This document shows positions 12,086 to 27,228 of a DNA stretch of 64,000 nucleotides, piece by piece. How positions within the stretch are numbered: position 1 is the stretch's first letter; the number at the start of each line of letters is the position of its first letter. Source of the DNA: Vitreimonas flagellata (GTDB lineage: Bacteria; Pseudomonadota; Alphaproteobacteria; Caulobacterales; Aquidulcibacteraceae); contig NZ_SBJL01000002.1 in NCBI RefSeq assembly GCF_004634425.1, forward strand, positions 620,001-684,000. The letters run 5' to 3'. The translations under genes and the position numbers were made by a program. A model generated the notes under the pieces. That model saw only the letters and a list, made by a program, of their open reading frames with translations. It made no database searches and had not been told where the DNA came from.

Positions 12086-15000
12086 ATGTCGATCACGGGT
12101 TTGTCGCCCGCGCAGATTAGCGCGCTTTCTGTCACGGCCATTCAAGGGCTGTCGACGACTGTCATATCGCAGCTGGCGGCCACACAGGTCGCGGCGATCA
12201 GCGCAACCGGCATTGCGGCCCTCAATAACACGCAGGTTACAGCGCTTAGCACGACGCAAGTCCGCGCGCTGACGACCACGCAAGTCCCGAATTTCTCAAG
12301 CGATGTGACGTTCTCCTCGGCGCAGCTCCTGGCGCTCTCGGCCAACCAGCTTGGCGTGATGACGACGACGCAGGTCGCCAATTTCAACACGACCGCCATC
12401 AGCGGCTTCACCACGGGCCAAGTGCAAGCGCTTTCGGCCACGAACATCTCGGCGCTGGATTCCACGCAAGCGGCGGCGCTGCGCACCACGCAAATTTCCG
12501 CGCTTAGCACCACGCAAGTCGCCGGCCTCTCCGCCACCGACATCGAAGAGCTCACCTCGACGCAAGCCCGCGCCTTCACGGCCACGCAAATCGCCCGCCT
12601 GACGACCGAAGCGGTCGCGGCGTTCGACGCAACGACCGCGGCTTCGCTCACGGTGACGCAAGTCAAGGCGCTGACGACGACGCAAATCGATTCGCTGGAT
12701 ACCGCCGATATCGCCGAATTCTCGTCGACGCAGCTCGCCAGCATGTCGACGACGCAAGTGCGCGCGATCAACGAAACGAATTTCGCCGCCCTGACCGAAA
12801 CCCAAGTCGGCGCGCTGACGGTCACGCAATTGCAATCGGTTACGGACACGCAGCTGGCCGCGCTCACGGACACGCAAGTGGCCGCGATGTCGACCACGCA
12901 AGTGAGTTCGATCAAGGCCAGCCAATTGGCGGCGTTGAGCGCCTCTGACATGGTCGAGCTGACCAGCACGCAATTGGCCGCGCTTTCGACCAGCCAAGTG
13001 CGCGCGCTCACGGAAACGAGCTTCAGCGCGCTGGCGGATACGCAAATCGCTGCCCTTGGCGCGACGCTCGTCCAATCGATCTCGACCACGACATTGACGG
13101 CGCTGGCTGACACGCAGGTCGCGGCTTTCACCACCACGCAGATCGCCGCGCTTTCGACCGCACAGGCGCGCGTGCTGAACGAGACCAATATCGGCGCGAT
13201 GTCCGAAACGCAGGTCGCGGCCTTCACCGGAGCGCAATTGCAGGCGTTGACGGCAACGGCGCTCTCGGCGCTGGCGGAAACGCAAGTGGCGGCGATGAGC
13301 ACGACGCAAGTTGCGTCGCTCAAGTCGAACCAACTCACTGCGCTCAACGAAACCGACATCGCGGAATTCGCAGCGACCCAGATTGCCGCGCTCACGACCT
13401 CCCAGCTGCGCGGCCTCACCGCCACCAGCATTGGCGCGCTGACGGACACGCAAGTCGCCGCCTTCACGACGACGCAAATTCAGTCGCTGACCACCACGCA
13501 AGTGGGTGCGTTCGATGAGACGCAATTCGGCGCGCTCACCACCACGCAAGTCGCCGCCTTCACCGGCTCGCAACTGCGCGGCCTGAACGCGACGACGGTG
13601 GGCTCGCTCGCCGACACCCAGATCGCCGCCTTCTCAGCCACGCAGATCGCCGCCCTTTCCGACACAGGCCTGGCGGCGTTCGACGCCACACAGATCGGCG
13701 CGATGAGCACGACACAAGTGGCCGCGCTCACCCGCAACCAAGTCGCGGCGATGAGCACGACCACACTGTCGCTGTTCGAAGGCACGCAGGTCGCCGCGTT
13801 CACGGAAACGCAAATGCGCGCGTTGACGGCGACGCAGCTCGGCACACTGGACGCCACGGATGTGGCGGAGTTCACCACGACGCAATTGGCGGCTTTGGCC
13901 TCCACGCAGGTCGCTGCTCTGACCTCGACCAATATGGCGTCGCTGGCGGAAACGCAGATCGCGGCCTTCACGGCCACGCAGGTCAAGTCGTTCTCGTCCA
14001 CGAATCTCGCCGCCCTCGCCGACACACAAATCGCGGCGTTCACGACCACGCAGATCGCCGCACTTGGAGCGACCCAAGTCTCTGGCCTGGGCGCAACGAA
14101 TATCGCCGCCTTGACCGAAACGCAGATCGGCGCCCTCAACGCAACCAATATCGCAGCGCTCTCGACCACGGCGGTGTCGGCCTTTGACTCCGCTCAGTTC
14201 GGCGCACTCAACACCACGCAGGTTCGCGCGCTGACCAGCACGCAGGTGGCCGCGCTCGACGAGACCGACGTCAGCGAATTCACCACGACCCAGATCGCCG
14301 CTCTCACCGCCACGCAGGTCACGAACCTGACCGGCACGGTCGTGGAAGCCCTCGCGGACACGCAAATCGCGGCGCTGACCACGGCGCAAGTTCAAGCCTT
14401 GAAGGCGACCAACATCGCCGCCATGGCTGACACGCAGATCGCCGCCTTCGCCGCCACGCAGATCGCGGCGATGACGGCGAGCCAAATCGCGGGCCTCGAC
14501 ACCACGAACCTCGACGCCTTCACCGAGACGCAAATCGGCGCACTGACGACGACGCAACTCGCCCTGCTCTCCAGCACCAATCTCTCGAGCCTCGCCGATT
14601 CGCAGATCGCCGCGCTCTCGACCACGCAGATCAAGTCGTTCGTTGCAACTCAGCTCGCCGGTTTGGACGAGACCGATATGGCTGAGTTCACCGAAACGCA
14701 GATCGGCGCGCTGACGGCAAGCCAAGTTCAAGCGCTTTCGAGTACGAATTTCGCGGCGCTGGCCGATAGCCAAGTCGCAGCGCTGACGACGACGCAACTC
14801 GCGGCCGTCTCGGCCACCAATATCGGCGCGATGACCGAAACGCAGGTCGCGGCCTTCACGACCACGCAGATCGCCTCGCTCTCGACCAGCCAAGTGCGCG
14901 CTTTCAACGCGACCAACCTCTCGGCCCTCGATGCGGATCAAACCGCAGCGCTGACGGCGACGCAGGTTGCTTCGCTGACGACGACCCAGTTGGCCGACCT

Positions 15001-18000
15001 CGAATCCACCGACATCGGGGAGCTGACGGGCGCGCAATTGGCGGCGCTTTCGGCGACGCAAGTGAAGGGTCTGACCAGCACCCTGCTGACCACGCTCACG
15101 GAAACGCAAGTCGCCGCCTTCACCGCGACGCAAGTCCAGGCGATCACCACCACCAATGTCGCTGAACTCGCCGAAACGCAGATCGCGGCGCTGACGACCA
15201 CGCAAGTCGGCGCGCTTACGGCCTCGCAGCTGAAGGTGCTCGACGAAACGAATTTGGCTGCACTCGACGCGACGCAATTCGCGGCGATCAGCGCCACGCA
15301 GATCAAGTCCTTTACGACCACGCAGATCGCCGGCCTCGACGCCTCGAACCTGGCGGAACTGACGACCACGCAAATCGGCGCCCTGGCGACGACGCAGGTC
15401 TCGGCCATCGAAGCCACCAGCTTGGCCGACCTCACTGAAACTCAGGTCGCAGCCTTCAGCGGCACGCTCATCGCGCGTCTGACGACCGAGGCGCTCAACG
15501 CCCTCGACGCCACGCAATTCAACGCGCTCAACGCCACGCAGATCGCCAATTTGACCACGACGCAAATTGCGTCGCTCGACTCGACCGATCTCGGCGAATT
15601 CACGACGACGCAGATCGGCGCGCTGACCAAGCGTCAGATCGAATCGCTTACGGATACGGCGCTGACCGGCCTGGCCGACACACAAGTGGCCGCCTTCACC
15701 GCGACGCAAATCCAATCTTTCACGGCGACCACCCTCTCCGCACTCGACGCGGCGCAGGCTGGCGCGCTGACCACGACGCAGATCGCGGCTCTGAAGACGA
15801 CGCAGGTCACAAGCTTCAACGCCACCGACATGGCCGAATTCTCCACGACGCAAGTCGCGGCATTCACGGCCTCGCAAATTTCGAAACTCACGGATGAAGC
15901 GGTCGCGGCTCTTGACGCGGCGCAAGTCGGCGCCCTCAACACCACGCAGGTGCGCGCGCTGACCACCACGCAGATCGCGGCGCTCGAAGCAACCGACGTT
16001 GCCGAATTGAGCACAACGCAAATCGCGGCGATGCACACGACGCAGATCGGCGCGCTGACGGCGACGAACATCACCGAGCTGGCCGACACGCAGGTCGCGG
16101 CGCTCACGGCGACGCAAGTCTCGGCGCTCTCCAGCACGATCATCAACGCGCTGGCGGATACGCAGATCGCCGCTTTCACCACCACACAGATTGGCGCACT
16201 CACCGCGCTGCAAGCGGCAAGCCTGACCGAAACCAGCATCGGCGCGCTGACGGAAACGCAAGCAGCGGCGATGAACGCGACGCAGCTCGCGGCCCTCACC
16301 TCGACGGCGGCGGCGGCGTTCGAACAAACGCACATTGCAGCGATGAACACGACGCAAGTGCGCGCGTTCTCGACGACGCAAGTGGCCGCCTTCGACGAAA
16401 CCGACATCGGCGAGTTCACCGAGACGCAAATTGGCGCGCTGACGACCACGCAAGTTCAGTCGCTGAGCTCCACCAATTTGGCCGCGCTCGCCGAATCGCA
16501 AGTGGCTGCGCTGACAGCAGCGCAGCTCGGCGCGATCACGTCGACGAATTTCGGCGCCATGACCGAAACGCAGATGTCGGCGCTGACGACCACGCAGGTC
16601 GCCGCGCTCTCCACCAGCCAATTGCAGGCGATGGACGCCACCAACCTCTCAGCGCTCGACGCCACGCAAGTTGCGGCCCTGACCACGACGCAGGTGTCCG
16701 CGCTCAGCACGACGCAACTCGGCGATCTGACGGCCGGCGACGTCGCGGAGTTCGGCGTCACGCAAATCGCGGCGCTGACGGCCACGCAAGTGCGCGGTCT
16801 GACCGAAACGAACATCGGCGACCTGGCCGACACCCAGATCGCGGCGCTCACCGCGACGCAGGTTCAAGCGCTCTCCGCCACCAACGCGTCGGCCCTGGCT
16901 GACACGCAGGTCGCGGCCCTCACCACGACCCAAGTCTCGGCCCTCACGACGACGCAATTGGCGGCGCTCAACGAGACCGACATCACCGAGTTCAACGAGA
17001 CGCAGATCGGCGCGCTGACGACCACGCAGGTCAAGGCGCTGGTCGATACGCAACTCGGCGCACTGGTCGACACGCAAGTTGCGGCGATGACTGCGGCACA
17101 GCTGCAGTCGATCTCCACCACCCGCCTCGCCGCCTTCGACGAGACGCAAATGGCGGCGATGACCACGACGCAAGTGGCCGCACTCACCACCTCGCAGGTG
17201 AAGGCGCTCTCGACCACGAACCTCAGCGCCTTTGACGCCACGCAGGTCGCGGCGATGACGAATTCGCAAGTTGCAGCACTTACGACGACGCAGCTCAACG
17301 CGCTCGACACGTCGGACATGGCGGAATTCACCACAACGCAAATCGCCGGCATGGCGACGACGCAGGTGCGCGACCTTTCCGCCACGAATTTCGCAGCGCT
17401 GACCGACACGCAAGTCGCGGCGCTCACGGCGACGCAGGTGAAGGCGATGACGGCGACCAACGTGGCCGGCCTCTCCGACACGCAAGTGGCTGCGCTGACG
17501 ACGACGCAAGTCGCTTCGCTCACCACCTCGCAGATCGCGGGCCTGCAAGCCGGCGACATCGCCGAGTTCAGCACCACGCAAGTCGCGGCGATGACCACGA
17601 CGCAGGTGAAGGCGCTCTCGACCACGAACCTGCAAGCGCTCTCGGACGCCCAGATCGCGGCCATGAGCATCGCGCAACTGCAATCGATCGCCACAACGGC
17701 GGTCGGTTCGCTGACCGAAACCCAAATCGCGGCGCTCACGCTCAGCCAAGTCGGCGGCTTGAGTGCGGCGCAGGTCTCAGCCTTCTCGACCACGAATCTG
17801 AACGCTCTCGACGCGACGCAAGTCGGCGCGCTGACGACCACGCAGGTCAAGGCGCTGACGGCGACGCAGATCGATGCGCTCGGCGCCACCGATCTCGCCG
17901 AGTTCAGCACCACGCAGCTGCAGGCGATGAGCTCGACGCAGATCGCGGCCTTCACGGCGACCAACATCGCCTCGCTGGCCGACACCCAGATCGCCTCGCT

Positions 18001-18400
18001 GGCTTCGACGCAACTCTCCCGCATCTCGACGGAAGCGTTCGCAGCACTCGACGCCGCGCAGGTGGCCACGCTCACGACCACGCAAGTCCGCACGCTGGCG
18101 ACCACGCAGATTGCAGCGCTCGTCGCCTCCGATATAGCGGAGTTCGCCGATACACAGATCGCGGCGATGACGGTGACGCAGGTTCAGGCGCTCTCGACCA
18201 CGGTGATCGCGGATATCGAATCGGCGCAGCTGGCCGCGCTCGACATCACGCAAGTCGCCGCGCTCTCGACCACGCAGCTTGATCACCTCTCGACGACAAA
18301 CATTTCAGCGATGACGACGACGCAGGTCTATGCCTTCACCTCGACGCAGGTGGCGAGCCTGGATGCGGCGCAGATCGAAGCTTACCTGGCCGTCGCCTAA
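12086..18400 (+). CDS. Giant octapeptide-repeat protein, 2104 aa
   Basis: No family assigned. The whole protein is an 8-residue tandem repeat with consensus T-Q-[VIL]-A-A-[LFM]-[TS]-[TASED]. Reading octads from the N-terminus gives 9 units, one 6-residue unit (DVTFSS, residues 73-78), then 252 octads and a 10-residue end (AQIEAYLAVA) with no further register break. About every third or fourth octad is a marker without Gln, often TNxxALxE/D. Nineteen markers read as [TSAG]-[DN]-x-x-E-[FL], the first at residue 151 and the last at 2015. No Cys or Trp, very few Pro, His or Tyr; rich in Thr/Ser/Ala and net acidic. There is no N-terminal signal peptide, so if exported it would need a type I-like or other non-Sec route. 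A TPR/GT41 glycosyltransferase follows on the same strand. A surface or structural solenoid is the likeliest role; this is inference. Confidence 0.93.
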   Translation: MSITGLSPAQISALSVTAIQGLSTTVISQLAATQVAAISATGIAALNNTQVTALSTTQVRALTTTQVPNFSSDVTFSSAQLLALSANQLGVMTTTQVANFNTTAISGFTTGQVQALSATNISALDSTQAAALRTTQISALSTTQVAGLSATDIEELTSTQARAFTATQIARLTTEAVAAFDATTAASLTVTQVKALTTTQIDSLDTADIAEFSSTQLASMSTTQVRAINETNFAALTETQVGALTVTQLQSVTDTQLAALTDTQVAAMSTTQVSSIKASQLAALSASDMVELTSTQLAALSTSQVRALTETSFSALADTQIAALGATLVQSISTTTLTALADTQVAAFTTTQIAALSTAQARVLNETNIGAMSETQVAAFTGAQLQALTATALSALAETQVAAMSTTQVASLKSNQLTALNETDIAEFAATQIAALTTSQLRGLTATSIGALTDTQVAAFTTTQIQSLTTTQVGAFDETQFGALTTTQVAAFTGSQLRGLNATTVGSLADTQIAAFSATQIAALSDTGLAAFDATQIGAMSTTQVAALTRNQVAAMSTTTLSLFEGTQVAAFTETQMRALTATQLGTLDATDVAEFTTTQLAALASTQVAALTSTNMASLAETQIAAFTATQVKSFSSTNLAALADTQIAAFTTTQIAALGATQVSGLGATNIAALTETQIGALNATNIAALSTTAVSAFDSAQFGALNTTQVRALTSTQVAALDETDVSEFTTTQIAALTATQVTNLTGTVVEALADTQIAALTTAQVQALKATNIAAMADTQIAAFAATQIAAMTASQIAGLDTTNLDAFTETQIGALTTTQLALLSSTNLSSLADSQIAALSTTQIKSFVATQLAGLDETDMAEFTETQIGALTASQVQALSSTNFAALADSQVAALTTTQLAAVSATNIGAMTETQVAAFTTTQIASLSTSQVRAFNATNLSALDADQTAALTATQVASLTTTQLADLESTDIGELTGAQLAALSATQVKGLTSTLLTTLTETQVAAFTATQVQAITTTNVAELAETQIAALTTTQVGALTASQLKVLDETNLAALDATQFAAISATQIKSFTTTQIAGLDASNLAELTTTQIGALATTQVSAIEATSLADLTETQVAAFSGTLIARLTTEALNALDATQFNALNATQIANLTTTQIASLDSTDLGEFTTTQIGALTKRQIESLTDTALTGLADTQVAAFTATQIQSFTATTLSALDAAQAGALTTTQIAALKTTQVTSFNATDMAEFSTTQVAAFTASQISKLTDEAVAALDAAQVGALNTTQVRALTTTQIAALEATDVAELSTTQIAAMHTTQIGALTATNITELADTQVAALTATQVSALSSTIINALADTQIAAFTTTQIGALTALQAASLTETSIGALTETQAAAMNATQLAALTSTAAAAFEQTHIAAMNTTQVRAFSTTQVAAFDETDIGEFTETQIGALTTTQVQSLSSTNLAALAESQVAALTAAQLGAITSTNFGAMTETQMSALTTTQVAALSTSQLQAMDATNLSALDATQVAALTTTQVSALSTTQLGDLTAGDVAEFGVTQIAALTATQVRGLTETNIGDLADTQIAALTATQVQALSATNASALADTQVAALTTTQVSALTTTQLAALNETDITEFNETQIGALTTTQVKALVDTQLGALVDTQVAAMTAAQLQSISTTRLAAFDETQMAAMTTTQVAALTTSQVKALSTTNLSAFDATQVAAMTNSQVAALTTTQLNALDTSDMAEFTTTQIAGMATTQVRDLSATNFAALTDTQVAALTATQVKAMTATNVAGLSDTQVAALTTTQVASLTTSQIAGLQAGDIAEFSTTQVAAMTTTQVKALSTTNLQALSDAQIAAMSIAQLQSIATTAVGSLTETQIAALTLSQVGGLSAAQVSAFSTTNLNALDATQVGALTTTQVKALTATQIDALGATDLAEFSTTQLQAMSSTQIAAFTATNIASLADTQIASLASTQLSRISTEAFAALDAAQVATLTTTQVRTLATTQIAALVASDIAEFADTQIAAMTVTQVQALSTTVIADIESAQLAALDITQVAALSTTQLDHLSTTNISAMTTTQVYAFTSTQVASLDAAQIEAYLAVA
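12320..18391 (+). repeat. 24-bp coding tandem repeat array
   Basis: About 250 tandem 24-bp units, each encoding one octad (typical core ACGCAAGTCGCGGCGCTGAC). Units differ at synonymous and non-synonymous sites, so the array is diversified rather than freshly amplified, yet every insertion or deletion has been a multiple of 24 bp. Some longer near-copies exist, for example the same 31 bp at 17193-17223 and 17601-17631, exactly 408 bp (17 octads) apart. Confidence 0.93.
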
Positions 18401-18453: not shown

Positions 18454-18560
18454 TCCTATTAAGGTTTTGAAAACGCAAATCGCCGGAGCTTCGCGCCCGC
18501 GCGGGCGTGCGCCGCCGGGATTGCCCAGGCGTGCGACGGCTCCGCCGAGAGCCGGATTCC

Positions 18561-20612
18561 ATGTCCCAGATCAATTTCGCCGCAGCACTACAGAAGATCA
18601 CCACTGGCGAGTTGCCGATCGGTGAGCTGATCGCCGCGGCGCAAGCGCTCACCCAAGCGGGCCAACCCGATCAGGCGCGGCAGCTCTACCAAGTTTGGAT
18701 CGCGATGAATGCGGAGCATCCCCTGCTCTTCATTGCGCACTTCAATTGCTCGACTCTGATGCAAGCGCTGGGCGATGCCGCCGGCGGCGAGATCGCGTTG
18801 CGTAGCGCACTGGCGGCGAGCCCCGACTTTGCGCCGGCGCGGATCAATCTCGGCAGCGCGCTGGAGCGCCGCGGCGCGGTGAAAGAAGCGCTCACGGAGT
18901 GGCAAGCGGGCGTGGAACGCCTGGCCGCCGTGACGGGCGATGCGGTTGACTATAAGATCACATTGCTGAAGCAGATCAGCCGCGTGATGGGCGACAATCA
19001 GATGCACGAAGCGTCCGAGACGGCGCTGCTTCAAGCACTCGATCTCAATCCAGAGCAACGCGACGTGCTGGAGCAGTATGGCGCCGTGCGCTTGGCGCAG
19101 TGCAAATGGCCGATTGCGCAGATCAGCCCGAAGATTTCGCGGCGCTCCTTTATCTCGCGCTTCCACCCGCTTTCGGCATGCGCCTATGCGGATGATCCGT
19201 TGATGCATCTCGGCGTGGCGAAGCGCTATGTCGAAGCGCTGACGCCAATCGAGAGCATCAACACGCAATTCGACCGTCGCGACGCGGCGATCGAGACCAA
19301 CCGCCGTTTGCGCATTGGCTATGTGTCGTCGGATCTGCGCAGCCACGCCGTCGGCTATCTGATGGCCAATCTCTTTGAATCGCACGATCCGAGCGCGATC
19401 GAGGTGTTCGTCTATTATTGCGGCATCCCCGCGGACGACGTCATCAATCAGCGCGTGAAGGCCGTCGCCGAGCATTGGACAGACATTCGTTCGATGTCGG
19501 ACGATGAAGCGGCCGCAGCGATCGCGGCCGATGGCATCGATATTCTGGTCGATGTGAACGGGCACACGCGTGAGGCGCGTTTGGGCGTGTTCGCGCGCAG
19601 GCCAGCGCCAATCATCGTCAATTGGCTGGGTTATCCCGGCACGATGGGCAGCCCGTATCACCATTACATCGTCGCGGATGAGAACGTCATTCCGCCGGCG
19701 ATGGAGCATTATTATTCCGAGCGCGTCCTGCGTCTGCCCTGCTACCAACCGAACGATCGCCGACGCATCGTTGATCCGACGACGCCGACGCGGACGGAAA
19801 TGGGCCTGCCGGAAGATGCGTTCGTGTTCTGCAGCTTCAACGCTGCGCACAAGGTCACGCGCTTCTCGTTCGAGCGCTGGCTGGAGATTTTGCGCCAGAC
19901 GCCGAACAGCGTGCTCTGGTTGCTCGATTACAACGCCGAGACCAACGCGCGCCTCCGCGCCTACGCGAGCGCCAACGGAGTCGATGGCGAACGTCTGATC
20001 TTTGCGCCGAAGATCGCCAATCCACGCCATTTGGCGCGCTATCCGTTGGCCGATCTCTTCCTCGACACGGTGCCGTATGGCGCGCACACCACCGCCTCCG
20101 ACGCGCTCTGGATGGGCGTGCCGGTGCTGACTTTGCTGGGCCGGAGCTTTGCTTCGCGTGTGTGCGGCTCTTTGGTGCGTAGCGCTGGTTTGCCAGAGCT
20201 GGTGTGCGATACGCCCGAGGAATTCGTGGCGCGTGGCGTAGCACTCGCGGGCGCCGATCGCTTAAGTTTGCGCGCGTATCGCGAGCGCCTGATTGCAGGC
20301 CGTGATACGTGCACGCTGTTCGATACGGCCCTGCTCGCGCGCAAGCTGGAAGCGCTCTACGTCACGATGCGCGACGAATATCTTGCCGGCCAGCTCCCAC
20401 AGCCCAACCTCGCCAATCTCGATTCCTATCTCGAGATCGGCGTGGCGTACGATCATGACGCCACCGAGATCGGCCTGCTTGCTGAATACGAGGCGCTCTA
20501 TCGCGCTGAATTGACCAAGCGCCATCATCAGCGGCCGATGCAAGCTGACGGGCGCTTGTGGGATGGCGGCGCTATCGCTCCGCGTGCATCTCGGATTGAA
20601 CGCGCAGCTTAG
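18561..20612 (+). CDS. TPR / GT41 glycosyltransferase, SPINDLY/OGT type
   Basis: 683-aa protein from ATG 18561 (a longer frame to 18507 lacks support). Residues 1 to about 190 form several TPR-like helix pairs (for example AQALTQAGQPDQARQLY and LGSALERRGAVKEALTEW). The rest is a GT41 catalytic region: SSDLRSHAVGYL with His262, equivalent to the OGT His498; FNAAHKVTR with Lys431, equivalent to the UDP-binding Lys842; and the DTVPYGAHTTASDALWMGVP and SRVCGSLVRSAGLPELV blocks. GT41 enzymes transfer a nucleotide-activated sugar (GlcNAc, fucose or hexose) to Ser/Thr or Asn of proteins in the cytosol. The Thr/Ser/Asn-rich repeat protein 160 nt upstream on the same strand is the obvious candidate substrate. 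The 3' end overlaps the convergent nodT gene by 4 nt. Confidence 0.9.
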   Translation: MSQINFAAALQKITTGELPIGELIAAAQALTQAGQPDQARQLYQVWIAMNAEHPLLFIAHFNCSTLMQALGDAAGGEIALRSALAASPDFAPARINLGSALERRGAVKEALTEWQAGVERLAAVTGDAVDYKITLLKQISRVMGDNQMHEASETALLQALDLNPEQRDVLEQYGAVRLAQCKWPIAQISPKISRRSFISRFHPLSACAYADDPLMHLGVAKRYVEALTPIESINTQFDRRDAAIETNRRLRIGYVSSDLRSHAVGYLMANLFESHDPSAIEVFVYYCGIPADDVINQRVKAVAEHWTDIRSMSDDEAAAAIAADGIDILVDVNGHTREARLGVFARRPAPIIVNWLGYPGTMGSPYHHYIVADENVIPPAMEHYYSERVLRLPCYQPNDRRRIVDPTTPTRTEMGLPEDAFVFCSFNAAHKVTRFSFERWLEILRQTPNSVLWLLDYNAETNARLRAYASANGVDGERLIFAPKIANPRHLARYPLADLFLDTVPYGAHTTASDALWMGVPVLTLLGRSFASRVCGSLVRSAGLPELVCDTPEEFVARGVALAGADRLSLRAYRERLIAGRDTCTLFDTALLARKLEALYVTMRDEYLAGQLPQPNLANLDSYLEIGVAYDHDATEIGLLAEYEALYRAELTKRHHQRPMQADGRLWDGGAIAPRASRIERAA

Positions 20613-22048
20613 TTCCGCGTTTCGATCACCGGGCCGCCGCCGAAGGCGCGATAGGTGGCGATCGCCGCGCGCGCTTGCTGCGCTTCGGCATCGATGCGCG
20701 TGAGTTCTGCCTCGATCAATTGCTGCTCGGACCGCAGACGATCGCTCAAGCTTTGGATGCCCGCCTCATACGCGGCGCGTGAGCCGCGCGCGGTGACGTT
20801 GGCCGCCGCTTCCGCTTCGTTCGCCGCGTCGAGACGCAAGCGCCCCTGATCGAGCGCCACCAGCGCATTCGAGGCTTCGGCGACGGCCTGCGTCACGGTT
20901 TGGCGATATTGGATCAAAGATTGATCGAATTGCGCATCGCGCTGGCGGATGGTGGCGAAGCGCGAGCCCCAATCGAACAGCGGAATGGAGATGAACGGCG
21001 TCGCCGAACCGATGGTCGCGCCGACGCCAGTCGGATCGCCAATCAGCGCGTCGGACACATTGATCGAGCCGGTAAGATTAATCTGCGGCAGCAGCGCATT
21101 GCGCGCATCGGAGACGTTCGCGGCGGCGAGCAAGGTTTGCGCTTCCGCGCGCGCGACATCGGGGCGGAGGCGCAGCAGGTCCGCAGGCGCTGCCGGCGCT
21201 GCAGTGAGTTCGAGATGCGGCACCGGCGCATTGGCCTGCGCAAGTGCGCTGCGGATGGCGTCGGATTCCGTGCCGGGCGCTACGCCGCGCAGAACGGCGA
21301 GCACGTTTTCCGCGCGGCGTGTTTCGATGATGATGCCTGGAATGCGCGTGCGCGTGGTTGCGGCGGCGCGGCGGGCGTCGGCGGCGTCCGCTTCAGAGGC
21401 AAATCCGGCGCGTGCGCTGGTTTGCAAAATGCCCGCGAGTTCGTCGGAGATTTGCGCCGAGCGCTGCAGCGCCACACGGCTCGCCTGCGCCGCGCGCAAA
21501 TCGACATAGGCCTGCGCCACATCGGCCACGAGCGCGACTTGCGCGGCACGCAGATCAGCGCGCGCGCCTTGCGTATTCGCGCGTGCGCCGATGGCGGCAG
21601 CTTCGAGGCGACCAAACAGCGGAATTTCCCACGTTGCTTGCGCGCCGTACGTGCCGGTCATCTGCTCGCGCTCAAAGCCGCCTGCAGCTGTCGGCAGCGC
21701 GCCATCTTCGATCGCGCGCGTGTATTGGCCCTGCCCTGTTGCGGTCAGCTCCGGCAGATAGCGCGTCAGCGTTTGATACGAGAGCGCGCGTGCTTCGCGG
21801 ATGCGCGAGACGGCGAGTTGGATCGACGGGCCGTTTTGGAGCGCATCCGCAACGAGCGTGTCGAGGGTCGGGTCATTGAATTGGCGCCACCAATCGGTGA
21901 CCGGCAGCTCCGCGCCAGCTGGGGCGTCCTGCCACACCGTCGGGAGAGGCGGCGCTTCAGCCCTCTCGCGCGGCATGGTCGAGCAGGCGGCCAGAACCGC
22001 CGCCGCCGACACCGCCGCTGCCCGGCTGAGGGATCGCAAACGCATCAT
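20609..22048 (-). CDS. NodT-family outer-membrane efflux lipoprotein
   Basis: 479-aa TolC/OprM-like channel. The signal peptide ends in a lipobox LAAC (about residues 19-22), so it is lipid-anchored to the outer membrane. It has two OEP repeats with the usual TDWWRQFNDPTLDTLVADAL start and DARNALLPQINLTGS and YEAGIQSLSDRL segments. It forms the exit duct for an RND pump, almost certainly the divergent MFP-RND pair at 22.8-27.2 kb, which shares the control region at 22049-22228. Of the two N-terminal Met codons, the first is annotated. Confidence 0.92.
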   Translation of the reverse strand: MMRLRSLSRAAAVSAAAVLAACSTMPRERAEAPPLPTVWQDAPAGAELPVTDWWRQFNDPTLDTLVADALQNGPSIQLAVSRIREARALSYQTLTRYLPELTATGQGQYTRAIEDGALPTAAGGFEREQMTGTYGAQATWEIPLFGRLEAAAIGARANTQGARADLRAAQVALVADVAQAYVDLRAAQASRVALQRSAQISDELAGILQTSARAGFASEADAADARRAAATTRTRIPGIIIETRRAENVLAVLRGVAPGTESDAIRSALAQANAPVPHLELTAAPAAPADLLRLRPDVARAEAQTLLAAANVSDARNALLPQINLTGSINVSDALIGDPTGVGATIGSATPFISIPLFDWGSRFATIRQRDAQFDQSLIQYRQTVTQAVAEASNALVALDQGRLRLDAANEAEAAANVTARGSRAAYEAGIQSLSDRLRSEQQLIEAELTRIDAEAQQARAAIATYRAFGGGPVIETRN

Positions 22049-22160
22049 GCCTCGTTACTCCGCAAAGCCTTAGCCCGGCCCTAACCACGTTGGCCGCATC
22101 CTCGGGGCGCGAGGGGACTTGGGTCAGCTGCTTGACCACGTCCAGGTTTAACATTTATAG

Positions 22161-22174
22161 AACGAACATTCGTT
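22161..22174. promoter_or_regulatory. TetR-type operator candidate
   Basis: Perfect dyad AACGAA-CA-TTCGTT in an AT-rich patch (ATTTATAGAACGAACATTCGTTTTATAT) between divergent nodT and tetR. Size, symmetry and position fit a TetR-family operator controlling both directions, including the regulator itself. Confidence 0.65.
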
Positions 22175-22228
22175 TTATATGCAACGCAGCGAACGGGGGC
22201 AAGTCCCTGACGCTTTGGAGAATACGTC

Positions 22229-22837
22229 TTGGCGCGGGTCGCCGATCCCCTGCTGGCTGACAGACGCCGCCGTCAGATCATGGACGCGGCGATCGTCTGC
22301 TTTCGCCGCCGCGGTTTTCACCAGGCGTCGATGCAGGAGATTTGCGCCGAGGCCGGGATCAGCGCGGGCGCGCTGTACCGCTATTTCAGCTCCAAGGCCG
22401 ACATCATTGGCGCCATCGCAGAAGACTCGCGCGCCGAAGGCGACGAAGCGTTTCTCCGCGCGGCGGAAAAATTCGGCTTCCTCGAAGCCATGCTCACCTC
22501 CTCCCGCGACTTTCTGCAGAAGTTCGTCGAGGATGGCCCGCTCGTCGCCGACATCATGGGCGAGTCCTTGCGTGACGAGAGCATCGCCACCGTGCTCCGC
22601 GCGAGCGACCGGCGCAGCATCCTCATTTTCGCGAAAGCCATCATCGCCGCGCAAGCGCGCGGTGAGATCGACAAGTCACTCGATCCCGAAAAAGCGGCGG
22701 ACACCTTGTTCGCGATGGTCGAAGGCATAGGTCTTCGCCGCGCCTTCAACGGCGCCACGGATACCGAAGCCGCGCTCGCGCAATTCCGCGCTGTTGCAGA
22801 ACGCTATTTAGCCCCTCCTCCCCGAGACCGGTCATGA
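22229..22837 (+). CDS. TetR/AcrR-family repressor of the RND pump
   Basis: 202-aa regulator with a TTG start, supported by GGAG 8 nt upstream. The N-terminal HTH is visible: RRQIMDAAIVCFRRRGFHQ then MQEICAEAGISAGALYRYF, followed by the SSKADII linker. The C-terminal ligand domain is helical. Its last codons overlap the MFP start (ATGA at 22834). The perfect dyad at 22161-22174 is its probable operator, making this a classic self-regulated efflux operon. Inducer unknown. Confidence 0.9.
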   Translation: MARVADPLLADRRRRQIMDAAIVCFRRRGFHQASMQEICAEAGISAGALYRYFSSKADIIGAIAEDSRAEGDEAFLRAAEKFGFLEAMLTSSRDFLQKFVEDGPLVADIMGESLRDESIATVLRASDRRSILIFAKAIIAAQARGEIDKSLDPEKAADTLFAMVEGIGLRRAFNGATDTEAALAQFRAVAERYLAPPPRDRS

Positions 22838-24138
22838 ACAAGCCCGAGCGTCCCGAAATCTTCAACAAGGCCGGCGATTTGCTGAAACGCGCCGCCGATG
22901 CAGGCGGCAGCGCGCTGAAGAGCGTGGGCGACGCCAGCGAGGCCGCGTGGAATCGCGCCACAGATGCGCCGGATGAAGCCGGCAAGCGCCGCAAGACTTT
23001 AATCATTCTCGGCAGCGGCATCGCTGCGATCATTGTCGTGCTCTTCGTGGTCAGTCGCTTGGGCGGCGACGGCGCCGTGCATACGCCGGTCTCGACGGCG
23101 CAAGCCGTGTCCGTGATCACGGTTGCGCCGCGCGGCGTAACGCCGACGATTTCGCTCAATGGCGAAGCGCGCCCGGTGCGCGATATCCAAGTTTCGGCGC
23201 CGACAAGCGGCGTACGTGTTCTCGAAATTCTCGTCGATGAAGGCGACACGGTGCGCGCGGGCCAAGCGATGGCGCGGCTCGACACCAATGTCGCGGAAGC
23301 GCAAATCCAGTCCGCGCAAGCCAGCGTGGCGGAAGCGGAATCCTCCGCGATCCGCGCGCGCGGCGAGTATGAGCGCGCGGAATCGATCCGTGACTCGGGC
23401 GCCCTTTCCGCCGAGGCGATCGAACAGCGCCGGGCGGCGGCAGTTGCGGCGGATGCACGTTTGGCGGCGGCGCGCGCGCAAGCGCGGGAAGTGAATGCGC
23501 GCTTGGGCGGCGGTTATGTGCGCGCGCCAGCAGCGGGCTTGGTGATCGACCGCGCGGCGGAAGTTGGCCGCAACGTCGATGGCCAGGTGCTCTTCCGCAT
23601 CGCGGCGGACAATCGTTTGGAAGTGGCGGCGCAGATCGCGGAAGCCGATGCGCTGGCGCTTGAAGTCGGCCAGACGGCGCAATTCACGCTGGTCGATGGC
23701 TCGACGGTTGAAGGCAGGCTGCGGCGCGGCCCCGCTTCGATCGATAGCCGGACACGGACGGGCGAAGCGCTCTTCTCGCTACCGGCCGGCACGCGCGTGC
23801 GCGCGGGCATGTATCTGCGCGGCGTGGCGCATCTCACAGAGCGGAGCGTGCCGGCGATTCCGCAAAGTTCGGTGCTGTACGATGACGGCCAAGCGTACGT
23901 TTATGTTGTCGGCGACAACAATATCGTGCGCCGCACAGAGGTGCAGCTGGGCGCACGCGACGGCGATTATATCGAGATCATCTCCGGGCTCGACCTCGGC
24001 CAACGCGTTGTCGGCGCAGGCGCCGCCTTCTTGCAAGACGGCGAAGAAGTCCGCGCGATCGCCACCGAAGCTGCGGCGGCGCCGGCGGCCACCGCGCCGG
24101 TCCCTCCGGAACAAAATCTTCGCGGCCGGGAAGGCTAA
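22834..24138 (+). CDS. RND efflux periplasmic adaptor (MFP)
   Basis: 434-aa membrane-fusion protein. A cytoplasmic N-terminal segment of about 50 residues precedes one membrane anchor (LIILGSGIAAIIVVLFVV, about 54-72). The biotinyl-lipoyl halves are at DEGDTVRAGQAMARLD and GGYVRAPAAGLVIDRAAEVGR, with an alpha-hairpin between them, then beta-barrel and membrane-proximal domains. The unusually long pre-anchor segment (LLKRAADAGGSALKSVGDAS) looks amphipathic. Stop and start overlaps with tetR and a 3-nt gap to the pump gene indicate one operon. Confidence 0.92.
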   Translation: MNKPERPEIFNKAGDLLKRAADAGGSALKSVGDASEAAWNRATDAPDEAGKRRKTLIILGSGIAAIIVVLFVVSRLGGDGAVHTPVSTAQAVSVITVAPRGVTPTISLNGEARPVRDIQVSAPTSGVRVLEILVDEGDTVRAGQAMARLDTNVAEAQIQSAQASVAEAESSAIRARGEYERAESIRDSGALSAEAIEQRRAAAVAADARLAAARAQAREVNARLGGGYVRAPAAGLVIDRAAEVGRNVDGQVLFRIAADNRLEVAAQIAEADALALEVGQTAQFTLVDGSTVEGRLRRGPASIDSRTRTGEALFSLPAGTRVRAGMYLRGVAHLTERSVPAIPQSSVLYDDGQAYVYVVGDNNIVRRTEVQLGARDGDYIEIISGLDLGQRVVGAGAAFLQDGEEVRAIATEAAAAPAATAPVPPEQNLRGREG

Positions 24139-24141
24139 GCT

Positions 24142-27100
24142 ATGGCTTGGAATATCTCCGCGGGTGCGATCCGCAACCCGATCCCGCCCATCGTCCTGAT
24201 CCTCGCGCTCTTGTTCGCGGGCTGGACGGCGTATGGCCGCTTGCCGATCAACCAATTGCCGAACGTCGATTTCGGCGGCTTCACGGTAACGGTCGCGCAA
24301 GGCGGCGCGGCGCCTGCGGAAATGGAAACGCAGATCACGCAGCGCATCGAATCCGCGCTGACGTCCGTGGAAGGCGTCAAGCGTGTCACCTCCACGATCT
24401 CACCCGGGGTTTCGCAAACGCAAGTGGAGATGGACAGCGGCAGCGATCTCGGCCGCGCTGTCGACGACGCGCGCGACGCGATCAACCGTATTCGCGCCGA
24501 ACTACCGGCCGACATCACCGAACCCGTCATCACCCGCATTGAAGCGGCGGCCCAGCCGATCGGCTATTACGCGGTCGAAGGCCAAGGCATGACGCCCCAG
24601 GACATTTCCTGGTTCATCGACAACGATCTGCAGCGCGAATTGCTGGCGGTGCCCGGCGTGTCCCAAGTGCAGCGCATGGGCGGGGTCGATCGCGAAATTC
24701 GCATCGAGCTCGATCCCGCGCGCATGCTCGCGTACGGCATTTCCGCCGACCAAATCAACAGCCAGCTGCGCGCGCTGAACGCCGACCTTCCCGGCGGCCA
24801 AGCCGAGGTCGCTGGCCAAGCACAATCCATCCGCATCCTCGGCGGCGCGCAAAGCGTGGCGGAACTCGCCGACATCCGCGTCACCGCCAGCGACGGCCGC
24901 ATCGTGCGCATCGGCGACCTCGGCACGGTGACGGACAGCGCCAGCGATCTGCAATCGATCTCACGCTACAACGGCCAGCCGGTGGTGGGCTTTCTCGTGC
25001 TTCGCTCGCGCGGCGCCTCGGAAGTCCAAGTGTTCGACCGCATGGACGAACGCATTCGCGCCATCGAAGAAGCGCGCCCAGAGCTGCGCATCCGCGAAAT
25101 CGGCTCGACCGTCGAATTCATTCGCGGCATGCACGAAAGCTCAATCCATGCGCTGATCGAAGGCGCCCTGCTCGCCTGCGTGGTCGTGTTCTTGATCCTG
25201 CGCGATTGGCGCTCGACGCTCATCGCGGCCGCAGCGATTCCGCTTTCCATCATGCCGACCTTCGCCGGCATGGAAGTGCTGGGCTTTACGCTGAACATGG
25301 TGACGTTGATCGCGCTGGCGCTGGTCACCGGGGTGCTTGTCGACGATGCGATCGTGGAGATCGAGAATATCGTCAGGCACATGCGGATGGGCAAATCCGC
25401 GTATCAGGCCTCACTCGAAGCGGCGGATGAAATTGGCCTCGCGGTTGTTGCGACCACGTTCTCGATTATCGCCGTGTTCGTGCCGGTGAGCTTCATGTCC
25501 GGCGGCATGGGGGTGTTCTTTAGGGAATTCGGACTCACCGTTGCGATGGCGGCGTTCTTCTCGCTTGTCGTCGCGCGCTTGATCACGCCGATGATGGCGG
25601 CATTCTTCCTCAGCAATTCCGGCCACGAAGAGCGCCCGCCCGGCACGATCCTGAACATCTACAAAGACGCCCTGCACTGGGCGATCATCAATCCGTGGAA
25701 GACGATCGGCATTGGCCTGGCCATGTTCGTCGTGCCCGTCGGCTTGCTGATTGCGGGCGCCATTCCAGCCGTCGTGATCCCGCGCTTCGACAACGGCATG
25801 ATCCAGGTGCGCGTGGAAATTCCGCCAGGCACGCCAGTGCTGAGCGCCGATCGCGTGCTGCAACAAATGAGCACGCGCATTCGCGAAGCCGCGCCCGAAG
25901 TCGAAGGCGTGTTTACTTCGATGAGCGGCGCAGACGGTTCAGCGCCAGACGCGACGATCTACATTCAGCTAACGGATCGCAAAGACCGTGATCGCTCCGG
26001 CTACGCGATCCAGCAAGTGCTGCGCCCGGTGCTTGCGGATTTCCCGGACTATCGCGCTGCGTTCGTGCAGGACCAGGGCGGACAATCCGGCTCTGACATC
26101 ACGGTCCAATTTGTCGGCCAAGACCCAGCCGCCGTGAACCTAGCGGCCGAGCGCTTAGCCGCGGCGATGAACCGATTGGACTCGCTGACGGACGTGCGCT
26201 CCGCCTCCGCGCTGCGCCGGCCTGAAATTCAAATCCGTCCACGCCAAGAAGACATGGCGCGCTTGGGCGTCACCGCCGCAAGCCTCGCCTCCGCGATCCG
26301 CATCGCCACGAGCGGCGACGCTGAGCAGAATCTGCCGAAGTTCGATTTGGCCGATCGCCAAATCCCGATCCGCACGACGATCCGCCCGGATCGCAGGCAA
26401 GACCTCGACGCGATCCGCTCGCTGCCGGTGCAGTCGAATCTCGGCGTCCCGGTGCGTCTCGACGCCGTCGCGGAAGTACAATTCTCACTCGGCGAAGCCA
26501 CGATCGAGCGCCGCGACCGCGAGCGCGCGGTGACCGTTGGCGCCAACGTGGTGCCGGGCGTCGAATTGAGTGAGGCGCAGCAGGAAGTGTTCAATCTTCC
26601 CGAAGCGAATGAGCCGCCGCCGGGCGCGCGTCTCGCGGTCGGCGGTCAGACCGAAGATTTCGCGGAAATGACCGACGCATTCGGCACGGCAATGCTGTGG
26701 GGCGTGATCTTGATCTACGGCGTGCTGGTGTTGCTGTTCAAAGACTTCTTCCAGCCGATCACGATCATGATGGCGTTGCCGCTTTCGATCGGCGGCGCGT
26801 TCTTGGGCCTCATCATCGCCAATCAACCGCTCTCGCTATTCGCGTTCATCGGCTTGTTGATGCTGATGGGCCTTGTAACCAAGAACTCGATCCTGCTGGT
26901 CGATTTCGCCGTCGAGCGCATGCACATGGGCGCGAGCCGCAATGCAGCACTCATGGAAGCCGGCATGAAGCGCGCACGGCCGATCATCATGACCACGTTC
27001 GCGATGTCGGCCGGCATGATCCCCGCCGCCGCGGGCTGGGGCGTCGACGGCACGCTGCGTCAGGGCATGGGCGCGGCTGTGATCGGGGGCTTGATGCTCT

Positions 27101-27228
27101 CCACCCTGCTCTCGCTTGTGTTCGTGCCGGCGATGTTCGTGCTGATCGATCGCCTGGAGCGCTGGGTGCAAGGCTTCCTGCCAAAGCCCAGCACCGGCGA
27201 AGCCCACGCGCACACGCCGGCCGAATAA
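24142..27228 (+). CDS. RND-family efflux pump, inner-membrane subunit
   Basis: 1028-aa AcrB/MexF-like proton-driven exporter with twelve membrane segments and two periplasmic porter loops. It begins AWNISAGAIRNPIPPIVLI. The TM4 proton-relay pair is present in TGVLVDDAIVEIENIVRH, and the TM10 lysine in LMGLVTKNSILLVDFAVER. The EMETQITQRIESAL and VEGVKRVTSTISPG porter motifs resemble the less-studied branch often annotated as multidrug/acriflavin RND rather than AcrB itself. Substrates cannot be inferred. Convergent with metB, 2 nt apart. Confidence 0.94.
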   Translation: MAWNISAGAIRNPIPPIVLILALLFAGWTAYGRLPINQLPNVDFGGFTVTVAQGGAAPAEMETQITQRIESALTSVEGVKRVTSTISPGVSQTQVEMDSGSDLGRAVDDARDAINRIRAELPADITEPVITRIEAAAQPIGYYAVEGQGMTPQDISWFIDNDLQRELLAVPGVSQVQRMGGVDREIRIELDPARMLAYGISADQINSQLRALNADLPGGQAEVAGQAQSIRILGGAQSVAELADIRVTASDGRIVRIGDLGTVTDSASDLQSISRYNGQPVVGFLVLRSRGASEVQVFDRMDERIRAIEEARPELRIREIGSTVEFIRGMHESSIHALIEGALLACVVVFLILRDWRSTLIAAAAIPLSIMPTFAGMEVLGFTLNMVTLIALALVTGVLVDDAIVEIENIVRHMRMGKSAYQASLEAADEIGLAVVATTFSIIAVFVPVSFMSGGMGVFFREFGLTVAMAAFFSLVVARLITPMMAAFFLSNSGHEERPPGTILNIYKDALHWAIINPWKTIGIGLAMFVVPVGLLIAGAIPAVVIPRFDNGMIQVRVEIPPGTPVLSADRVLQQMSTRIREAAPEVEGVFTSMSGADGSAPDATIYIQLTDRKDRDRSGYAIQQVLRPVLADFPDYRAAFVQDQGGQSGSDITVQFVGQDPAAVNLAAERLAAAMNRLDSLTDVRSASALRRPEIQIRPRQEDMARLGVTAASLASAIRIATSGDAEQNLPKFDLADRQIPIRTTIRPDRRQDLDAIRSLPVQSNLGVPVRLDAVAEVQFSLGEATIERRDRERAVTVGANVVPGVELSEAQQEVFNLPEANEPPPGARLAVGGQTEDFAEMTDAFGTAMLWGVILIYGVLVLLFKDFFQPITIMMALPLSIGGAFLGLIIANQPLSLFAFIGLLMLMGLVTKNSILLVDFAVERMHMGASRNAALMEAGMKRARPIIMTTFAMSAGMIPAAAGWGVDGTLRQGMGAAVIGGLMLSTLLSLVFVPAMFVLIDRLERWVQGFLPKPSTGEAHAHTPAE

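Follow-up and report, generated by a model that had tools for sequence, protein, structure and literature searches.

The analysed window is a stretch of 64,000 nucleotides from Vitreimonas flagellata (contig NZ_SBJL01000002.1), in which a large repeat gene is followed by a gene for a glycosyltransferase. The following features were defined, with coordinates given within the window:

12086..18400, + strand: ALTTAQ-repeat protein, 2104 aa (ORF; Pfam PF20080)
12104..12295, + strand: first eight octads, in another register than the main array (translation; congeners have 8 or 9 octads ahead of the main array)
12296..12313, + strand: slip of six residues, where the register changes from the first octads to that of the main array (translation)
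12314..18385, + strand: main array, 253 octads of type T-T-T-Q-V-A-A-L, making ~74 periods of 27.44 residues (octad parse, spectrum)
12530..18145 (span), + strand: 21 [DN]xxE[FL] marker octads forming the acidic stripe, starting at residues 149, 205, 285, 421, 589, 725, 861, 973, 1021, 1085, 1165, 1245, 1301, 1325, 1437, 1549, 1629, 1741, 1821, 1933 and 2013 (motif count)
18507..20612, + strand: 701-aa glycosyltransferase of the GT41 (SPINDLY/OGT) type with a TPR region, a candidate enzyme for modification of the repeat protein (Pfam PF13844, E 1.7e-80; PF13428 for the TPR)

The repeat protein consists of octads end to end and is a clear member of PF20080, a model that is a single 38-residue window; 74 stretches match, with 777.6 bits in total (E 9.5e-241; cut-off 26.4). 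Octads of the ALTTAQ kind, with a T/S-x-T-Q start and hydrophobic positions 5 and 8, occur in 253 contiguous copies, position 4 being Gln in 177 of 252. The composition is of low complexity, Ala and Thr accounting for 440 and 427 of the 2104 residues. A main array of exactly 253 octads is also found in seven congener proteins, and the congener arrays with one break likewise leave 6 residues when octads x 8 is subtracted from the array length. PF20080 also occurs in a Caulobacter vibrioides control genome, although not at a stricter limit. A scan of genome contigs for relatives found one locus only, and a search for a phage origin of the protein gave 0 matches in 50,697 phage records.

The original prediction held that marked octads recur with a mean spacing of about 3.4 octads, and this periodicity is confirmed in the window protein. 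In a spectral test on 252 octads from aa 85, octads that lack Gln at their fourth position give a peak at a period of 3.431 octads (27.44 residues) with a power of 54.1, the best of 2000 shuffles, searched on a fourfold coarser frequency grid, reaching 15.3. Eight of 14 marks peak at 3.425-3.431 octads with none of the 2000 shuffles as high: non-Gln, N/D, D and N at position 4 (which overlap by definition), E/D at 7, D/N/E at 1, E/D at 2 and K/R/Q/E at 6. Leu 5 (3.442 octads; 36 of 2000 shuffles) and Phe 8 (3.419; 196 of 2000) lean toward the same period, not clearly, and the peaks for Ala 1, Gly 6, Ile 5 and Val 5 lie elsewhere over these octads. Among the successive spacings of non-Gln octads, 62 of 74 equal 3 or 4. 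Octad lags 7, 10, 14, 17 and 24 are enriched (z 6.8-8.2), lags 3 and 4 have z of 4.9 and 2.8, and lags 1, 2, 5, 9 and 12 are depleted. The recurrence proposed at 3, 6, 10, 13 or 14, and 17 octads is seen at 3, 10, 14 and 17, but not at 6 (z -1.1) or 13 (z 0.3). The pair autocorrelation of Asn, Asp and Glu has sharp lags at 27 (z 6.8), 56 (6.6), 80 (6.1), 136 (8.6) and 192 residues (7.1); of the two peaks anticipated earlier, that at 24 residues is present (z 4.8), whereas that at 32 is weak (z 0.9).

Several details of the marker count had to be revised. The octad array and its markers are present, and the limits of the marker span are 12530-18145 and not 12536-18151. The strict motif has 21 members and 20 spacings instead of the 19 and 18 counted before, two octads with Asn having been overlooked, so that one spacing of 14 becomes 6+8 and one of 17 becomes 3+14. 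The argument that all spacings can be built from steps of 3 and 4 is empty, because just 1, 2 and 5 cannot be so composed. The spacings do lie close to whole turns of 3.431 octads, with a distance of 0.098 turn, whereas randomly placed markers give 0.260 and none of 20000 placements came as near; the period had been fitted to the same protein.

The same period organizes the charged residues. The charge spectrum of the window protein peaks at 27.44 residues with a power of 99.4, compared to at most 12.3 in 60 octad shuffles, and acidic and basic residues occupy opposite halves of the turn. When the main array is wound on this turn, one half holds 142 of 149 Asp/Glu and none of the 38 Lys/Arg. 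If net charge is used to choose the axis instead, the acidic half holds 139 of 149 and again none of the 38.

This arrangement extends through the family. The test covered 35 ALTTAQ ORFs whose arrays reach 480 aa or more, some from the window's genus and others from as far as Rhizobium, Cereibacter and Niveispirillum. In a scan of 20-40 residues every one of them has its peak within 27.06-27.72, and in 34 the power exceeds all 60 shuffles; Rhizobium-type arrays lie at 27.1 and those of the window's genus at 27.4. These counts follow removal of L020 and L029 (one gene in two records, almost identical to that of the window), L067 (the same gene as L060), L065 (no array through the octad parse) and arrays below 480 aa (one in L073, one in L086); the congeners G039 and G048 have a match at loci outside the fetched set. 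In L088 the whole protein peaks at 27.10 and its runs at ~27.55 with low power. Charge separation beats every one of 100 shuffles in 34 of the 35 ORFs; in the Pseudomonas relative L068 it does not go beyond shuffles, and the basic residues of L061 and L066 show hardly any periodicity. In seven congeners at 58-61% identity, 93.7% of non-Gln sites remain non-Gln, 94% of D4 are kept as Asp and 90% of their E7 as Glu. The ALTTAQ family is already known, and no description of its turn code was found: a period of 27.4 residues that sets the charges apart was nowhere seen stated for PF20080, no paper naming ALTTAQ, PF20080 or HeliScrew was found among open-licence PMC papers (preprints being outside the scope), and a broader literature search of the same scope found no paper titled on such a repeat.

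Register slips allow the counting unit of the period to be recognized. In seven relatives the phase tracks the residue count across slips and not the octad count, as a backbone turn would. Peak power with the slip residues counted and cut out, respectively, is 79.9 and 39.9 in L087, 51.4 and 18.7 in L089, 29.5 and 22.2 in L086, 13.3 and 5.1 in L088, 87.3 and 60.3 in L026, 93.1 and 78.0 in L028, and 96.3 and 93.2 in L027. Tandem units of some relatives also come near whole turns of 27.44 residues (24 octads or 192 aa in L060, L062 and L073; 31 octads or 248 aa in L064; 13 octads + 6, or 110 aa, in L089; 61 octads + 7, or 495 aa, in L086). The units of L068, L069, L070 and L071 are nearest to whole turns at their proteins' own shorter periods only.

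Such units raise the question of whether the period is a fossil of growth, in which cassettes of 7, 10, 14, 17 or 24 octads were duplicated and the markers label the copies with no structural meaning. Several relatives have strong tandem units (24, 17, 31, 34 or 44 octads), and therefore the family does grow by duplication. In the window gene the best 10-octad DNA match, at lag 72, reaches 75%, and codon identity at lags 17, 34 and 62 is 0.527-0.532, ~2.5 sd above the 0.482 (sd 0.019) found elsewhere. However, over the 15 good lags the mean codon identity at conserved residues is 0.497, less than 1 sd from other lags, whereas amino acid identity is 0.448 versus 0.380 at other lags. The period is moreover common to arrays of differing unit length, its phase survives short slips, D/E and K/R lie in opposite phases, and congeners conserve the marker sites, all of which makes a growth fossil quite improbable. 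For the window gene, the codon test taken overall does not support a recent duplication as the source of the period, despite lags 17, 34 and 62.

Structure prediction bears on what is being wound. AlphaFold2 models a 400-residue stretch (aa 1213-1612) as 50 helices in 50 octads, strand-free, with a pLDDT of 94.1 and a pTM of 0.80; two of the five models are good (pLDDT 94.1, 93.6, 62.1, 58.9 and 56.4). A second, single-sequence prediction for aa 1-400 has a pLDDT of 80 and some adjacent helices fused. These fused helices in the poorer model, the low-complexity composition and weak leucine-rich repeat matches (Pfam LRR_EndoS at E 9.4e-13, above its cut-off; PDB chains at E 0.0036 to 0.8) would suit a chain of another kind than a short-helix solenoid: one continuous helix, a coiled coil, a beta-solenoid, a leucine-rich repeat or a disordered chain. 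We regard this as very improbable in view of the 50 separate short helices without a strand, the margin of more than 700 bits by which PF20080 outscores the leucine-rich repeat model, and the solved structure of HeliScrew4 (PDB 9zem), a chain of the same octad type compared here by sequence alone. A leucine-rich repeat, with one strand per 20-30 residues, was rejected as the identity of the protein on account of the strandless model, though one such model scored above cut-off.

The number of octads per turn was approached in two further ways. In a coarse model with random backbone torsions on an 8-residue unit (60920 clash-free screws), burial is best at 2.4-2.9 units per turn, and the best screws are mostly left-handed (right-handed 13-23%, versus 25% of all kept). 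Because this model, which uses C-beta atoms only, over-packs to a pitch of ~8 angstrom, it leans against 3.4 octads per turn at most weakly. Core contacts were assessed by the mutual information that position 5 of an octad shares with position 7 of the third octad after it. Pooled over six proteins, the coupling looks like a contact, with z of 12.4 at +3 and -0.2 at +7; among eight proteins taken singly it is strong in L063 (23.9) and L072 (5.6; tandem units, similar at +5) and weak in the window protein (3.2), L027 (2.5) and L032 (2.1), whereas L061, L066 and L074 lack it (0.9-1.6). Coupling of position 7 to 8 peaks at +5 octads (11.1 pooled) and is unexplained by any 3.4-octad turn, and we take the core contacts as suggestive at most. 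The proposal of a coiled-coil analogue, with the marks on a single face of a superhelix that takes about 3.4 octads for each turn, is partly supported. It is favored by the helix per octad predicted on the 400-residue stretch, the opposite charge halves, the shared period and the residue-counted phase, and disfavored by the torsion model and the weak lag of 32 residues.

The genomic context provides a clue to the fate of the protein. A GT41 gene comes after the repeat gene in all 14 fetched congener loci. A search of 25 of the genus's 30 genomes (all except G037, G039, G040, G044 and G048) for a GT41 of at least 69% identity found it wherever the repeat gene is present, i.e. in the window's genome and 13 congeners (14 of 14), and in one of the 11 congeners lacking that gene. 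From this constant order we infer a glycosylated, probably exported rod. Modification of the rod on Thr/Ser by O-glycosylation through the neighboring enzyme appears fairly likely from gene linkage, and for export the balance tips slightly in favor. A linked HlyD/ABC exporter, as would be expected for a type I secreted protein, is present in L068, L070 and L073 but not in L069, L072 and L074, the other three of the six annotated plasmid records, and the sole HlyD above cut-off in the window's genome lies on another contig than the repeat gene.

A linked GT41 would also be a plausible reader of the stripe if the latter were a ruler and not a turn, i.e. if a partner such as this enzyme or an export machine read a mark every 27 residues along a solenoid whose turn takes some other number of octads, and the torsion model, preferring fewer units, is compatible with such a ruler. 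On an unfolded or differently wound chain, however, there is no reason for near-exclusive, complementary acidic and basic halves, nor for slips to count by residue, and the period persists in L061, L063, L066 and L074, where the fetched stretch showed no GT41 gene. We consider the ruler unlikely.

The best explanation, and in our judgment a likely one, is a giant solenoid in which each turn takes ~3.4 helices and the stripe marks lateral faces that carry charge. The repeat gene would encode a single very long solenoid, each octad forming a short helix and a tight turn with position 1 outside the helix and positions 5 and 8, which are hydrophobic, presumably facing inward. One superhelical turn would be completed by about 3.43 octads (27.4 residues), and this equation of period and turn is very probably correct. 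A regular solenoid would make its octads equivalent, a symmetry that the stripe would break by placing Asp/Glu (with Asn beside) on one edge and Lys/Arg and Gln at position 6 on the opposite one, in phase over ~74 periods. The data suggest a long screw-like rod with one negative and one positive edge. By the model of the coiled-coil a/d stripe, the stripe would most likely mark lateral faces where the rod meets something else. The simplest partner would be another copy, acidic edge against basic edge; that such edges make rods line up laterally, either on the cell or outside it, is a tentative proposal.

More broadly, and with considerable doubt, ALTTAQ proteins might form a class of giant 'Janus screws', with a helix per octad, a turn of 27.0-27.7 residues stated in the sequence, glycosylation by GT41, edges that join rods into sheets or bundles outside the cell, and array lengths and duplications in whole turns. 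If true, the coiled-coil code would have a second-order counterpart whose letters are helices and not residues, and in which whole-turn lengths and duplications keep the edges in register. If the solenoid reading is right, i) sequence alone gives the superhelical turn to within ~1% for a family of which no functional description was found, ii) the sequence names the faces that meet the outside, iii) an orphan repeat family becomes testable through its charge edges, salt-dependent lateral assembly and the linked O-glycosyltransferase, iv) a natural template for very long charged helical rods is available, and v) the family offers an example of duplications that seem confined to whole turns.

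Among known systems, PMC7591256 describes FlmG of Caulobacter as a flagellin O-glycosyltransferase with an N-terminal TPR and a C-terminal GT-B transferase, which modifies a secreted filament protein in the cytoplasm. The gene downstream of the repeat gene likewise has TPR and GT41 domains, a likeness of domain layout, and its putative substrate is suggested by gene linkage. HeliScrew4 matches aa 1745-1852 of the window protein (E 1.1e-14, 108 of its 120 residues) and, as a 120-aa chain, is made of the same kind of octad; unlike the window array, it has about 15 octads rich in Pro/Glu. Because of its name and these octads it looks designed, and the name suggests that its authors regard it as a helical screw; 9zem is not among the best 50 Foldseek matches listed (PDB copy to 8 April 2026). 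Mesothelin, according to PMC10035497, is built of 24 short helices that form a right-handed solenoid with nine layers, and its turns mix three-helix and two-helix units. The ARM/HEAT-like superhelix of mesothelin, stereocilin and otoancorin provides the top Foldseek matches of the window model, the three at E <=0.001 being all mesothelin entries (best E 3.9e-4, TM 0.28 of target), with low TM-scores of at most 0.33 of target in the long mesothelin alignments and 0.48 over 116 columns (rmsd 4.8). No mesothelin, ARM or HEAT model is among the six Pfam matches up to E 1, and the modelled resemblance is one of build, which need not mean kinship. In a coiled coil, the heptad a/d stripe, with spacings of 3 and 4 averaging 3.5, marks the face that packs against a partner. 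The analogy with the ALTTAQ stripe is one of principle: in both, unequal spacings of 3 and 4 average to the turn (3.43 versus 3.5) and the stripe runs on one face, but here the counted unit would be a whole eight-residue helix and not a residue, and the stripe is charged, not hydrophobic.

The repeat gene and the gene next after it are:

12086-18400, + strand, ALTTAQ-repeat protein, 2104 residues, all repeat from one end to the other
18507-20612, + strand, TPR + GT41 glycosyltransferase

The array opens with eight octads and, after a slip of six residues (aa 71-76), continues with 253 unbroken octads and a tail, LAVA; the consensus octad is T-T-T-Q-V-A-A-L (positions 1-8). Scoring octad by octad for 'not Gln at position 4' gave a single sharp period of 3.431 octads with a power of 54.1, against a maximum of 15.3 among 2000 shuffles, which bears out the original observation that marker octads recur periodically. 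The accompanying list of marker spacings was correct apart from two missed markers, and its arithmetic, by which all spacings are built from steps of 3 and 4, is void as an argument; the distance of the spacings to whole turns is 0.098 versus 0.260 expected (0 of 20000 as small). Of the two residue autocorrelation peaks anticipated, the one at lag 24 was present (z 4.8) and there was barely any at lag 32 (0.9), the highest value below 50 residues being at lag 27 (z 6.8; 16 lags tried). The peak fell at 3.425-3.431 octads for 8 of 14 marks tried, four of which (E/D at position 7, D/N/E at position 1, E/D at position 2, K/R/Q/E at position 6) score sites other than position 4; for hydrophobic and Gly/Ala marks the period was weak or absent. 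Thirds of the array fitted separately have periods of 3.409, 3.438 and 3.434 octads, with a nearly constant phase (77, 72 and 67 degrees).

The marker stripe of this protein is electrical. Position 4 has Asn at a phase of 61 degrees and Asp at 111 degrees, close to Glu at position 7 (108 degrees) and Asp/Glu at positions 1 and 2 (136-143 degrees), while Gln, Arg and Lys at position 6 lie at 288-301 degrees. When the main array is wound on a 27.44-residue turn, 142 of its 149 Asp/Glu lie no more than 90 degrees from the acidic axis, versus 0 of 38 Lys/Arg. Most of the 19 Gln outside position 4 sit near Lys/Arg, the mean phases being 106 and 111, and Thr and Gly are spread almost evenly round the turn (R 0.10 and 0.07). 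The charge spectrum, scanned over 9-120 residues, has one tall peak at 27.44 (power 99.6), followed by 13.72, half of that value (power 6.8), and 9.74 (4.3).

The protein matches Pfam PF20080 (ALTTAQ repeat) with an E-value of 9.5e-241 in 74 stretches, and a near-identical copy of its gene (94%) is found in the Hyphomonadaceae MAG CP096134.1. The family search over 60 genomes detected PF20080 in 17, namely the window's genome and 16 of 29 congeners, against none of the 30 belonging to other genera. At E 1e-8 the order search gave 11 positives among 200 genomes (the window's, seven congeners and three more), and at E 1e-6 the class search gave 6 among 289, again counting the window's. There were 58 matching plasmid records and no matching phage record. 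LRR_EndoS, Sigma70_r4_2 and CAAP1 also score above curated cut-offs on the array (12086-18400), probably as composition matches because the array is so repetitive. In plasmid records of Cereibacter sphaeroides (locus L070 and hits H6-H9) ALTTAQ proteins are labelled 'heme utilization protein' or 'ICE nucleation protein', and nothing in the present analysis backs either label.

Octads were parsed in 36 ORFs from 29 loci, four loci being added later; the family count comprises 35 ORFs (duplicates removed, arrays of at least 480 aa, scan of 20-40 residues). All 35 peak at 27.06-27.72 residues, and 34 beat all 60 octad shuffles, the exception being a 520-residue piece, L073. Acid/base separation exceeds all 100 shuffles in 34 of the 35, and is weaker in L061, L063, L066, L069 and L088 (0.40-0.49 versus 0.93 in the window protein). 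The exception here is L068, from a Pseudomonas plasmid, which has a period of 27.06 yet charge segregation no better than shuffles; its array runs in frame into a non-repeat C-terminal stretch. Congeners, as close kin, were counted as one lineage; others include Niveispirillum, Rhodovastum, Rhizobium, Cereibacter, Thioclava, Pseudoroseomonas and Pseudomonas. The period is 27.26-27.44 residues in the window's genus, 27.44-27.56 in the order-mates L086, L087 and L089 (L088 differs, at 27.10), and 27.06-27.12 in the distant L068, L069, L071 and L072. Proteins whose leading octad-level Fourier peak lies off the period (e.g. 2.0, 2.4 or 8.5 octads) usually have strong tandem units (24, 17, 34 or 27/44/71 octads), or weak signals in their place (L061, L066). 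Units of 192, 248, 110 and 495 aa equal 7.0, 9.0, 4.0 and 18.0 turns of 27.44 residues; those of L068 (27, 44 and 71 octads) equal 7.9, 12.8 and 20.7 such turns, and are whole only at its own 27.06. Strongly tandem proteins are weaker evidence alone, because the peak must be a harmonic of the unit; the window protein and its congeners are not of this kind. At the sequence level, the 27-residue period is a property of the ALTTAQ family.

Slips of 4-7 residues interrupt some arrays. Were the stripe a count of octads, it should sharpen once the slip residues were cut out; it blurred instead in all seven proteins tried, peak power falling from 79.9 to 39.9 (L087), 51.4 to 18.7 (L089), 29.5 to 22.2 (L086), 13.3 to 5.1 (L088), 87.3 to 60.3 (L026), 93.1 to 78.0 (L028) and 96.3 to 93.2 (L027, with a single slip near the N-terminus). 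Six of these proteins also offer slip-free runs of at least 41 octads, 14 in all. Scanned over 3-4 octads, these runs have their peaks at 27.38-27.65 residues, with low power (4.6-9.5) in L086 and L088. The phase of the stripe therefore follows the length of the chain, which is what a physical turn would do.

The window protein and seven others align gap-free across 253 octads, with 58-61% identity to the former. The position-4 class is kept at 93.7% for non-Gln and 97.4% for Gln, Asp at position 4 is kept as Asp at 94% and its Glu at position 7 as Glu at 90%, and positions 1, 2, 5 and 6 are conserved at merely 44-51%. Mean codon identity at conserved residues of the window gene is 0.497 at 15 good lags versus 0.482 (sd 0.019) elsewhere, and about 2.5 sd high at lags 17, 34 and 62. 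Judged from these comparisons, the marker sites reflect selection rather than recent copying.

The main run counts 253 octads, no more and no fewer, in the window protein and in seven congeners, an array length almost frozen; two further congeners (L024, L032) have 205, a shortfall of 48 octads or 14.0 turns of 3.43. The six-residue slip past the first eight or nine octads (window 12296-12313) is also present in congeners, and looks as if it divides an N-terminal cap from the rod. The repeat gene is broken into at least two ORFs in different frames in L020 (= L029), L030, L034 and L073, through either assembly error or genuine frameshift; these ORFs were kept separate and never joined. On the minus strand (12142-18286) the array is overlapped by antisense ORFs as long as 995 aa, more likely side effects of the octad repeat than gene candidates.

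The AlphaFold2 model of 400 residues (aa 1213-1612, run with the L020 counterpart) has 50 helices of 4-6 residues for 50 octads, a predicted one helix for each octad (pLDDT 94.1, pTM 0.80); two of five models were of pLDDT ~94 quality, the other three 56-62. Run as a single sequence, aa 1-400 gave a model of lower quality (pLDDT 80.2, some helices fused), and our own torsion sampling gave no support for 3.4 units per turn. The solved chain nearest in sequence is HeliScrew4 (9zem; E 1.1e-14). Foldseek gave three PDB matches with E <=0.001, all mesothelin entries (best E 3.9e-4), with TM of at most 0.33 of target across the long alignments and 0.48 across 116 columns. The structure paper on mesothelin (PMC10035497) describes its fold as a right-handed solenoid whose 24 short helices are arranged in nine layers.

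A close GT41 relative lies within about 170 bases downstream of the repeat gene in 14 of 14 fetched congener loci. Among 13 distant loci with an array, nine have a relative somewhere in the fetched stretch, adjoining the array in L064 and L068-L072 and some 4-5 kb off in L060, L062 and L073; none was found in the fetched stretches of L061, L063, L066 and L074. Across 25 of 30 genomes of the genus, a close enzyme (at least 69% identity) accompanies the repeat gene in all 14 that have it and occurs in 1 of the 11 that lack it; in this lone genome the match lies 108 bases from the end of its contig. A type I exporter adjoins the array in three of six annotated plasmid records; the type I HlyD above cut-off in the window's genome is on another contig. 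Window 20609-27228 encodes an outer-membrane efflux protein, a TetR regulator, an HlyD-type adaptor and an AcrB-type pump; together they resemble a standard RND efflux set beside the locus and are no obvious exporter for the repeat protein.

The single period, the two charge edges, their conservation, the predicted one helix per octad and the linked enzyme are shown; beyond these, one period probably represents one superhelical turn. With 76 or so turns, the chain would then form a rod roughly 60-75 nm long, assuming a rise per turn of 8-10 angstrom, a packing distance. Because no edge is distinguished from inside a uniform superhelix, the conserved stripe calls for an external factor, and the acidic and basic edges could contact another rod or a charged surface. 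The rod would probably also be O-glycosylated and exported. The repeat family is known; we found no description of the stripe property itself in the open-licence literature. According to PMC7591256, FlmG (TPR + GT-B) O-glycosylates flagellins in the Caulobacter cytoplasm. By its linkage the GT41 gene may have a comparable role, FlmG providing the precedent of a transferase modifying a filament protein prior to export.
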